Notes under the pieces: model-generated
Told to the model about the DNA's origin: nothing
What the model saw: only the letters and a program-made list of their open reading frames with translations
Databases searched by the model: none
Shown: positions 8,607 through 61,235 of the stretch, one piece after another
How positions within the stretch are numbered: the stretch's first letter is position 1
How the letters are laid out: each line of letters begins with the position of its first letter
NCBI GenBank assembly: GCA_949318235.1
Contig: OX439131.1
Location: 49,254,422 to 49,318,421, forward strand
Source of the DNA: Ecdyonurus torrentis
Lineage: Eukaryota; Arthropoda; Insecta; Ephemeroptera; Heptageniidae
Length of the DNA stretch: 64,000 nucleotides
Reading direction: 5' to 3'
Position numbers and translations under genes: made by a program

Positions 8607-9394
8607 TCAGTGATGTTTGTTGACATGACTCTTGAGACTGTTACTGCGTGCAGCCTTGTAGTCACACATGGTGCACTGGTAAGGTGTCTCACCTGAGTGT
8701 GTTCTCATGTGTGAAGTCAAGTGACCACTCTCTGCACACTTATATTCACATTGACTACATTGATAAGGCTTCTCACCTGTATGTGTCCTGACATGCTTGA
8801 CCAAGTTTGACTTCTGAGCAAAAGTCTCCTCACAATAAGGACATTGCTGATCTCTCACTTTGTCATGGACTTCCTTCACATGCATCACTAGATTATGTTT
8901 ATGTGTGAAAGATTTGTTGCACACTTGACACACATGATCTCTTTGTCCCGTGTGAGTCAACATGTGACGATCAAAATGTTGTTTGAGTCCAGTTACATAA
9001 GGACAATGACTGCACTTGAGAGCCCTAGCTTCATCATGTACTCTCTTGTGTGCAGTTAAGTGACTCTGGGTAGTATATTTCTTACCACAGACACTGCACA
9101 CAAAAGGTCTGTCTTTACCATCATCTCTCACTCTCCTAGCTAACACTTTGTCTCTCTCCGTCACTTCCCCCCCTGCACGTTGCTGTAGTTTCATCATTAG
9201 GCTTGACGTCACCTCATTCTGCACAAAACATGCACCGATAGCCGTGCTGCTTCGTGACGGAGGGAACACGATGGTTGCTTTGTGCTGCAGGACAAGAAGA
9301 GAATGTTCTGAGCCGTGCTTGGTGTGCACGTGACGTTGGACAAAGTTGACGCTGGAGAAACTGATGGAACACCACACGCACTGCAGCGCCTTGC
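8607..9394 (-). CDS. PRDM9: Exon 9 of PRDM9-like A: lone C2H2 plus six-finger array
   Basis: Terminal coding exon. The acceptor AG is at 9395-9396 and the split glycine codon joins exon 8, so the ATG just upstream (9402-9404) is intronic and not a start. It encodes a lone finger (C-V-W-C ... H-V-H-T-K-H) matching the isolated finger that precedes the array in vertebrate PRDM9, a basic linker of about 70 residues, then six C2H2 fingers. Helices (-1 to 6): TQSHLTA, LKQHFDR, HKHNLVM, QKSNLVK, ESGHLTS, RSNSLKS. Only one finger of the 84-bp YQCSQCEYKC type is present, against five in B and three in C, so this is the shortest array. The stop follows NKHH. Confidence 0.95.
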
Positions 9395-12300
9395 CTGGAA
9401 ACATTAATTATTGCTATTAGTTCACTACTAAGAAAATACTGACAATGCAATATAACAATGCTAAGACTAAAACTATGATTGTACACAAATATCCCAGAAT
9501 CTAATATTTAAAAAAAATGTAGCAACATAAAAACTTGACCCAGGCTAAAAAAAAAAACTAAAAAAAAAAAAAAAAAAAAAAAAAAACTTGTGACAATTGA
9601 ATCATAATATGTATAATCTTTATGTTTATCAATAATTTCCCACATTCACCTTAATTTTATAAATTAAATGATTATTTCTTCTTACAGTAGGCCTATACAT
9701 CAGACAAAATATAAAGATCAAACAAATATTAATTGATGCTGGCAGCTTTAGCAGAACTAAGGCATGGTAAATAATAATGGTAATAATAACCCATCCCCCT
9801 CCTTTTTTTTTTTTTTTTTTTTTTTTTTTTTGCTTGCTTACTTGCTTGTGTTACTTACATAGTTGCTAAATAATTTTGTACTTTTTATAATCAAATAACT
9901 TTTATAGCAATTTTTTTTTTATAACTTAATGGTTGCACTTTTTATTTACCCACCCCCACCTTAAATTATATTCTTGTAGCTATACTCAATTTGCATATGA
10001 CATGCTGAAAAACTTAACTTTTTTTTTTAATTGTAATATATAGGCTATAAAAAAAAAGTTTTCATGTAATTTCCTTTGTTTTAGAGGGGGAGAGTGATCA
10101 ACTTTTTTTTTTTTTTTTTTTTTTTTGCAAGATTTCTTCTTTTATTCCATAATTGCATAGTGTAATGTCACTTTAATTTTTAACTTAATTGTGATTTTCT
10201 TATCTTGAAAGTCAATAATATAAAGTCCACAAATATCGTAATATTATTTTTGTCGCAGTTGGTTACTCACCGACTTTCTTCCAGATGACAGGTGACAAGG
10301 CTCGCTCAGTCTTAGACTCATCAGTCTTAGGCTCAAAGTAAGCCTGCAGGTCAATCCCTAGGTCTAGCATGAAACTTTTGCCATACCACGTCAGCAGTTC
10401 ATCTCCTGGAGCAATCCACCTGTCAATCACAATTACAAATCAATCAAACAATACATCTATAAAAACTTCAATCAATAAGTTGTTAAGCCAGCGGCTAGGT
10501 AATACAATGTCTTTTATATTTACATATTAGGCACCAAAATTAAATTGTTAAAACAAGGCATATGTGAATTAGCTCAACTTCTCATTACTATATTTTTATA
10601 ACAATAAGGTATGATAAATTAAAAAGAAAATGACAGAAGAAACCAGCGCTGGTTTACATTAGAGAACCTTAGCAGCTTTAGTAGCCAGTTCAATGAAATC
10701 AGCTTGTCACCAGGATTACATTGAACTGGCTACTGAAGCTGCTAACTTATACACAATATTGAAATTTGCACACAAGATATAAACTTCAGTACACCAGGTA
10801 CATAAAGCATGAGACATGCTAAGTTACTTACTGCCTGGTGAGGTAGAAGATTTGTCCCTTCTCTTGCACAGGCACCAGGTTCTGCATGGAGTCATGAGTG
10901 GCACAGTTGACGTAGCGCAACCAGCTGGCTCTCGTCTCGTCTTTGGCGTCAACACTCAGGTTGCCTGCGCTGCCTCGACGAATCTAACACACAAACATAC
11001 GTGTGACAATCACAATATCTGCCAGGACCTGCTTGGTATGATTTATTAACATACCATCCAGCAGTAGCCGTCATTGTTGCTCTTGGTCAGTAGCTGGCCA
11101 TCGTAAGGCCCCAGCATGGTGTGTGGAGGAATGGGGAGCACAGCAAAAACTCCCATACCTGCATTAGGGATTGACGACTTTCCAATACGTAATCCCTTGG
11201 GTAGCGTGCGAGCTGCTCTGTCCTTGCATACAGATGACTTGACCTGAGAACAGCAATACATATCAATCAGTATATTAGATCAATGCATACAGTACACTCT
11301 AATAAGCAAGATATATTGGCCATCAACCTTGAAACACAAATTAATAAAATTAAAATATTTTTGTGTCAACTATGCCATCAAGATCTTCACCTAGCTATGC
11401 ACTTCATTGTGCAGGTAAAGTAATTCACGCATGCTTGCTGTTTTTATTTTTTCCTTTTTATTGAACTCTGTGCTTAAGTTTATAATAAGGAAAACAAATT
11501 TGATTTTGATTTAAAGCCCATACAAATAAAAATAAACTTTGTCAAAATTGCAGAGTAAAAATAAAAGTATTTTAACCCCCCCCCCCCCCCCCCCAAAAAA
11601 AAGTAGTTCATCCCAAATTGTAAAATTTTAAAATTACATTTTTACTAACAAGGTTTAAATTTTAAAGTTGTGTAAAACACATCGAACACAAAACTTGTCT
11701 AATATCCTAACGTACCTAAATATCAACATTGATATTTGGCCAGTCATTGATTTCTAATTTATTTTACACTCAAGAAATGGCAAATGCGGGTTTATTACAC
11801 ACACACACACACACACACAAACAAGTGAGCTAGTGTACATCATAAACCCACATCTGACATTTAGGATTAAGTGGAAAATAAATTAGAAATCAATGACTCC
11901 GGCAAATCAACGTTGTTATTTAGGTTATAGGATATTAGATGTTTTTTTATTCAAGGTGTTCCGCAAACTATTTTTCAACATTAACTGTAGAGTAAAAAAA
12001 AAAGTGTTTTTTATAACCCCCCTCCTCCCCCCTATAAAAAGTATTATTCAAATTTCAACAATTTAAAATTAAAGTTATATATGTTTTTTTTTTTTTTTTT
12101 TAAACATTAAAAAACTCTTTTGCACTCAAGAAAACTTTATTGCTAGCAGACAACTAGACTGCATAATAGTGTGTTGACTTCCATAGCTAGATAGATATAA
12201 ATACACGCTACATACTTACTGGAGTGCTAAACAATCTGAACGGTCTGCCGTGGTCTTCACACGCTCCCAGCACAGAACCTTCACATACACAGCAGTCTGG

Positions 12301-61064: not shown

Positions 61065-61235
61065 CTGGCACTTTCAATTTTACCGTCTTTTCTTCAAAGA
61101 AACGCGGAAATCTGCCGGAGACGCTTAGTGACATCATTAGTCACGTGATTAAATTAGCCGGTTAGTGCTGCCTCTAGCGGAGTAAAACTAAACTTTTTTT
61201 TATTTTACACCACAAAGGTCATTGCTGATTGGCTA
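61065..61235 (-). promoter_or_regulatory. Promoter and 5'UTR exon of PRDM9-like C
   Basis: Exon 1 ends at 61065. The E-box CACGTG (61142-61147) and CCAAT box (61227-61232) are kept. The CRE is degraded to TGACATCA. Exon 1 also lacks a few bases near the GGAGCTCGGAGA stretch seen in A and B. Confidence 0.5.

Follow-up and report, generated by a model that had tools for sequence, protein, structure and literature searches.

A Tandem Array of PRDM9-Type Genes with Differing Predicted DNA-Contact Residues, Two Copies Intact and One Interrupted by an Insertion

Introduction

In mammals and some fish, PRDM9 selects the sites at which chromosomes recombine. Over time it erodes the hotspots that it uses, and the reason for its persistence is debated. 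The question raised by the locus described here, a 64-kb stretch of contig OX439131.1 from Ecdyonurus torrentis (the window, meaning the whole stretch of DNA analysed), is whether several linked genes of this type have been kept in working order side by side, with different DNA specificities. The original prediction, made from the sequence alone, placed in it three full-domain PRDM9-like genes in tandem and regarded them as a locally amplified, still functional hotspot-directing system. The analysis reported below points to a PRDM9-type array in which two copies are intact and the third is interrupted by an insert. PRDM9 with concerted evolution has been reported in Nematostella, Lottia and Capitella (Oliver 2009, PMC2779102), and a bivalve PRDM9 is listed in PMC10451705.

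Results

The window (GC content 27–35% in 4-kb steps) contained three PRDM9-like genes with eight coding exons each, placed by means of GT/AG sites and the reading frame (Table 1). As had been claimed, all three lay on the minus strand and shared their exon phases, and the exons and the majority of the introns could be aligned among all of them. Coding exons 1–7 of copies 1 and 2 were equal in length (163, 112, 392, 77, 189, 152 and 149 nt), and exons 1–3 and 5–7 of copy 3 agreed with their counterparts. The predicted identity of exon lengths held for these exons and failed for exon 4 of copy 3. The terminal exons varied in length with the number of terminal fingers (6, 10 and 8 in copies 1, 2 and 3) following one lone finger. 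The coding part of copy 3 began at 60708, and no coding exon was modelled at 60708–61120.

Comparison of the SET part with the PDB gave 15 sequences at E ≤ 0.001, with three PRDM9 sequences on top at 107–111 bits. The best match was human PRDM9 (110.9 bits), followed by PRDM2 (75.3 bits) and PRDM11 (70 bits), the PRDM families being ranked by bit scores only. Both PRDM2 and PRDM11 share the PR/SET fold, and PRDM11 has a knuckle as well, but with the SET part alone they scored 36–41 bits below PRDM9. The knuckle-to-lone-finger part (query residues 216–441) aligned to residues 3–220/221 of human PRDM9 4ijd with E 3e-40 and 141.7 bits, and with the knuckle and lone finger included the second match after PRDM9 was PRDM11, at 89.8 bits. 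In Pfam, the PR domain PF21549 (3e-33), SET and C2H2 fingers were called on copy 1. Tyrosines aligned with human PRDM9 Y276, Y341 and Y357 were found in all three copies, as predicted, under a numbering that assumes the 4ijd chain to begin at residue 195. A zinc knuckle and a lone C2H2 finger flanked the SET domain in copies 1 and 2. A database search for protein relatives with residues 1–420 of copy 1 yielded none at E ≤ 0.001 among 3595 candidates. Judged by these similarities, the three genes are PRDM9-like, with a SET domain nearest to that of PRDM9 among the PRDM families.

The N-terminal region was assessed by alignment. The first 92 residues aligned to the human PRDM9 N-terminus (KRAB) with a score of 84, which none of 2000 shuffles reached, and at E ≤ 10 the first 91 residues matched a single PDB protein, the KRAB protein ZNF568, and that weakly (E 0.36). 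For the SSXRD-like stretch a free search was weak, its score being reached by 26 of 2000 shuffles; when the linker was added, 43 of 2000 reached it. With the alignment anchored on the adjoining knuckle, one shuffle in 100,000 scored as high against human PRDM9, and 861 in 100,000 did so against SSX2. The stretch between KRAB and SSXRD was longer than in mammalian PRDM9. The region is read, from these alignments, as a diverged KRAB of ancestral type plus SSXRD. PMC8835667 describes an ancestral KRAB that occurs in PRDM9 as well as in SSX proteins and whose origin is followed back to sea urchin.

The claim of three full-domain genes had to be reduced to two because exon 4 of copy 3, which should encode the zinc knuckle, was not intact. 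After its first 12 nt this exon was split by a 1217-bp insert with perfect 12-bp terminal inverted repeats and AT repeated at both borders; the longest stop-to-stop frame wholly within the insert was 88 residues. An insert with such ends matches what a cut-and-paste element would leave behind. A mere small alignment difference in this exon was ruled out, the missing 5′ piece being located 1.2 kb away. When the exon was read on from its own acceptor, a stop was met after 12 residues. The zinc-knuckle exon of copy 3 is thus very likely defective and, since it is split, copy 3 probably represents a disabled, PRDM9-derived copy. A cryptic acceptor (AAG) may keep exon 4 of copy 3 in frame, though not the knuckle, as the product would be without the knuckle C-x2-C. 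Upstream of this acceptor the T share was 0.28, as compared with 0.39–0.56 at 20 other acceptors, and the pyrimidine share of 0.44 lay inside their range of 0.39–0.61. A short inverted-repeat pair with 208-nt arms, probably a small transposon-like element, was also observed within intron 4 of copy 3 (56363–56841).

For the sequence preceding the terminal arrays, 1497 nt were compared, with the exon-4 codons excluded from all three copies. Every pair was separated by 16 synonymous changes and by 7 or 8 that alter the amino acid, as compared with about 58 of the latter expected at the synonymous rate (pS, the synonymous divergence, 0.049; ratio of nonsynonymous to synonymous divergence, pN/pS, 0.12–0.14), and the pairwise distances of the three copies were about equal. 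This part of the genes is under purifying selection.

The fingers showed a different distribution of changes. Six fingers could be matched one to one (the lone finger, the first four of the array and the last), the nine repeat fingers being excluded because such matching was impossible for them; positions −1, 2, 3 and 6 were taken as contact codons. An amino-acid difference was found at 12 of the 24 contact codons and a synonymous-only difference at none, as against 4 and 7, respectively, of the 105 non-contact codons (Fisher p 1.3e-7, codons treated as independent). For five of these fingers (without the lone one and with flanking residues added), pN at contact codons was 0.14–0.30 and pS at the other codons 0.08–0.09. 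The contact changes per pair amounted to 14.5, 12.5 and 7, where 2.4 were expected at the pre-array rate (P 3e-7, 9e-6 and 0.012). The close repeat contributes no member to the six matched fingers, and the protein sequence of the lone finger was invariant, so that shuffling of repeat units alone would be insufficient to account for the contact changes. The differences in the matched fingers fit PRDM9-like diversification. The original expectation of several DNA specificities would likewise fit the finding that contact residues differ among the three arrays, the binding itself being predicted.

Contact diversity was also calculated over all terminal fingers (20 residues each) with a version of the statistic in PMC5519329. 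High values were restricted to the nine "CSQCEYKC" repeat fingers (0.575 pooled). These were alike between genes and differed in order, the closest pair, from copies 2 and 3, differing at 1 of 84 nt; near identity combined with reordering fits exchange between copies.

By self-comparison the window resolved, from right to left, into a unit of copy 3 with a ZAD-like C2H2 gene (n3), a unit with such a gene (n2) and without PRDM9, a unit of copy 2 with n1, and copy 1, without a ZAD gene within the window. The block of n1 and copy 2 (19373–32960) was matched piecewise and in order by that of n3 and copy 3 (45849–61328), and the flanks of copy 1 matched those of copy 3. In agreement with the local amplification and PRDM9 identity originally put forward, the self-comparison joined the gene models and the SET and knuckle matches in their support. 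In the unit alignment most 400-column windows were less than 10% different, with a maximum of 15% in any window; introns aligned one by one differed by 1–17% between copies. The likely history, as reconstructed from these comparisons, is that a unit of PRDM9 and a ZAD-finger gene was duplicated, contact residues changed and repeat fingers were exchanged between copies; the insertion into copy 3 was probably the last step, and a recent one. Intron 1 (14516–14094 in copy 1, and its counterparts) differed by 1.0–1.5% only, as compared with 7–17% for introns 2–4 and 7, for which regulatory constraint or recent gene conversion is a possible explanation.

The interleaved ZAD-like genes are probably co-duplicated neighbours rather than part of PRDM9, and were used as controls. 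Exon 1 of n3 carried C-x2-C, with similar frames at n1 and n2, and the second half of the ZAD was found in the main exon. Pfam zf-AD (E 0.0077) did not pass the cut-off.

Several other repeats were present. An element at 34354–36649 had 803-bp inverted arms, 99.6–100% alike, and an open frame which we take to resemble the end of a Penelope-type reverse transcriptase with a GIY-YIG motif; Pfam gave nothing above cut-off for this frame. Between the gene units lay a dispersed repeat of about 0.4–0.7 kb, its copies 77–91% alike and including inverted matches, and a further short inverted-repeat pair (155-nt arms, 39239–39552) is probably a small transposon-like element. When the window was scanned for tRNAs and, at the gathering threshold, with Rfam, there was no match.

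Table 1. Positions of the PRDM9-like genes, their parts and other features in the window.
Feature	Position	Strand	Remarks
PRDM9-like copy 1	8607..14679	-	8 coding exons, 673 aa, intact; lone finger + 6 terminal fingers
Copy 1 exons	14679-14517, 14093-13982, 13152-12761, 12296-12220, 11243-11055, 10983-10832, 10419-10271, 9394-8607	-	
PRDM9-like copy 2	25878..32334	-	8 coding exons, 785 aa, intact; lone finger + 10 terminal fingers
Copy 2 exons	32334-32172, 31771-31660, 30807-30416, 29918-29842, 28942-28754, 28687-28536, 28111-27963, 27001-25878	-	
PRDM9-like copy 3	52358..60708	-	Same exon layout, exon 4 split by insertion; lone finger + 8 terminal fingers
KRAB-type exon, copy 1	14517..14679	-	Counterparts 32334-32172 (copy 2), 60708-60546 (copy 3)
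Exon 3, copy 1	12761..13152	-	3′ end is the SSXRD-like stretch; counterparts 30807-30416, 59193-58802
Zinc-knuckle exon, copy 1 (C-x2-C-x7-C-x2-H)	12220..12296	-	Copy 2 counterpart 29918-29842 intact
Zinc-knuckle exon, copy 3	58286-58275 + 57057-56991	-	Split
PR/SET domain, copy 1	10271..11243	-	Three exons; counterparts 28942-27963, 55570-54369
Terminal exon, copy 1 (lone C2H2 finger, linker, zinc-finger array)	8607..9394	-	Counterparts 27001-25878, 53313-52358
Transposon-like insert in copy 3 zinc-knuckle exon	57058..58274	-	1,217 bp; 12-bp terminal inverted repeats, 2-bp target duplication
ZAD-like C2H2 gene n1, main exon	19380..20525	-	Gene region 19380-20570; start placed by homology with n3
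ZAD-like C2H2 gene n2, main exon	40950-39733	-	Gene region 39733-40995; paralogue of n1
ZAD-like C2H2 gene n3	Exons 47839-47732, 47001-45856	-	Main region 45856-47046; paralogue of n1
Dispersed repeat copies	129-498, 16501-17229, 36607-37139, 44482-45116, 62127-62830		

Discussion

On balance the locus is probably a tandem PRDM9-type array, two copies intact and one interrupted, whose products are predicted to recognise different motifs and to trimethylate histone H3, likely directing meiotic double-strand breaks. Its steps follow established PRDM9 knowledge on finger binding, H3 methylation and the KRAB link. The zinc fingers of each copy would bind different DNA motifs, the SET domain, if enzymatically active, would trimethylate lysine 4 of H3 (H3K4) and K36 on nucleosomes close by, and the connection to the machinery that makes the breaks would be provided by the KRAB region; together the copies, expressed in the germline as we infer, would likely target recombination to more than one set of sites. 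K36 methylation by PRDM9 is treated in PMC7494361, and PMC5688218 reports that truncation of the KRAB region deprives mouse PRDM9 of its function and that CXXC1 is a KRAB partner in yeast two-hybrid. The earlier statement that the system is still functional would apply, at the level of open frames, pN/pS and retained tyrosines, to copies 1 and 2 and probably not to copy 3.

A number of results weigh against this interpretation. The search with hidden Markov models that had been proposed for KRAB, SSXRD and SET returned the PR/SET, SET and C2H2 domains, whereas Pfam, with the limit relaxed to E ≤ 10, called neither KRAB nor SSXRD, the indications for these two coming from weaker tests (shuffling for both, the ZNF568 match for KRAB); NCBIfam gave no call at all, which carries little weight as its library is bacterial and archaeal. 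The terminal arrays are short, the repeat fingers numbering 1 in copy 1, 5 in copy 2 and 3 in copy 3, and whole-array contact diversity showed no excess (0.26–0.29 in the PRDM9 copies, 0.27–0.30 in the control genes). The contact excess between copies 2 and 3 (7 changes, 2.4 expected, P 0.012) is weak. In the control ZAD-finger genes, too, contact pN was raised in five position-matched fingers (0.27–0.37, with pS 0.12–0.27); non-contact pN was 0.05–0.08 in these controls versus 0.01–0.02 in the PRDM9 copies, so that the controls show a weaker form of the contact-residue divergence. Finally, codons unique to copy 3 had 3 nonsynonymous and 6 synonymous changes, against 4:8 and 3:8 in the other copies, and with no amino-acid excess either the insert is recent or the loss of function is uncertain.

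That a single copy is the working PRDM9 and the others are recent duplicates heading to decay is a real possibility, though we hold it somewhat less probable. In copy 3 an exon has already been split by an insert, salmonids have kept one full-length copy among 6–14 (PMC11703093), and in ruminants the array has been lost in one of three PRDM9 copies (PMC5351255). However, the reading frames of copies 1 and 2 are intact, pN/pS is low in all pairs, and divergence of contact residues is not favoured by decay alone. It is quite unlikely that the proteins are non-meiotic, acting as transcription or transposon regulators with PRDM9 architecture: the locus is insert-rich with interleaved C2H2 genes, and the neighbouring ZAD genes share the contact-residue change, yet the catalytic tyrosines and the KRAB-type N-terminus are kept and the SET domain is nearest to PRDM9. 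In vertebrates, directed recombination is associated with PRDM9 of complete architecture.

An assembly artefact, with divergent haplotypes of one PRDM9 locus placed side by side, would account for part of the array and for a synonymous divergence of just about 5%, along with the close similarity of most unit-alignment windows; allelic divergence of that size can be reached in very polymorphic animals. Two haplotypes cannot yield three copies, however, and the surroundings of the copies differ, n2 having no PRDM9 and the copy 1 unit no ZAD gene in the window, while some introns aligned one by one are 12–17% different. We regard this explanation as very improbable. The preferred interpretation, a tandem array with two intact copies, could be carried further. 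The linked paralogues would then form a bank of specificities, with one conserved methyltransferase body, contact-diverged fingers (single-copy ones included) and trade in repeat fingers, giving several hotspot maps at once in one genome, so that a worn-out map could be replaced while PRDM9 itself is retained; this remains tentative, and we consider it unlikely.

The architecture resembles that of complete mammalian PRDM9 (Meisetz) in the KRAB-type N-terminus, the SSXRD-like stretch, the knuckle (copies 1 and 2), a PR/SET domain that has the three tyrosines, the lone finger and a terminal array encoded by a single last exon; as in mammals, the contact positions are variable. Unlike mammalian PRDM9, here three copies are linked and one is split by an insert, Pfam calls neither KRAB nor SSXRD, and most terminal fingers do not form a homogeneous minisatellite of 28-residue units. 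Capitella likewise has three close PRDM9 sequences, but these lay on separate scaffolds and may be alleles or paralogues (PMC2779102), whereas the present three lie on one sequence and one of them carries an insert. Local or segmental duplication with some copies degraded is shared with the tandem salmonid PRDM9 alpha copies 1.a and 1.b (PMC11703093) and the three ruminant copies (PMC5351255). Salmonid hotspots are determined by PRDM9, and each species has one full-length copy (PMC11703093); here, in a presumed non-vertebrate, two intact copies lie next to each other. Invertebrate PRDM9, fast-evolving forms included, has been known before, as has duplicated PRDM9 in vertebrates. No linked invertebrate PRDM9 cluster was found among the titles and abstract openings of the matches listed from open-licence PMC literature. 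What the present locus adds, as read from its sequence, is a linked trio, two of its members apparently intact and the third showing an insertion, together with divergence of predicted contact residues between paralogues.

Conclusions

Linked, intact copies with differing contact residues would make it possible to test whether paralogues, beside alleles, supply new specificities to PRDM9. The locus would also allow a test of hotspot direction by PRDM9 outside vertebrates.
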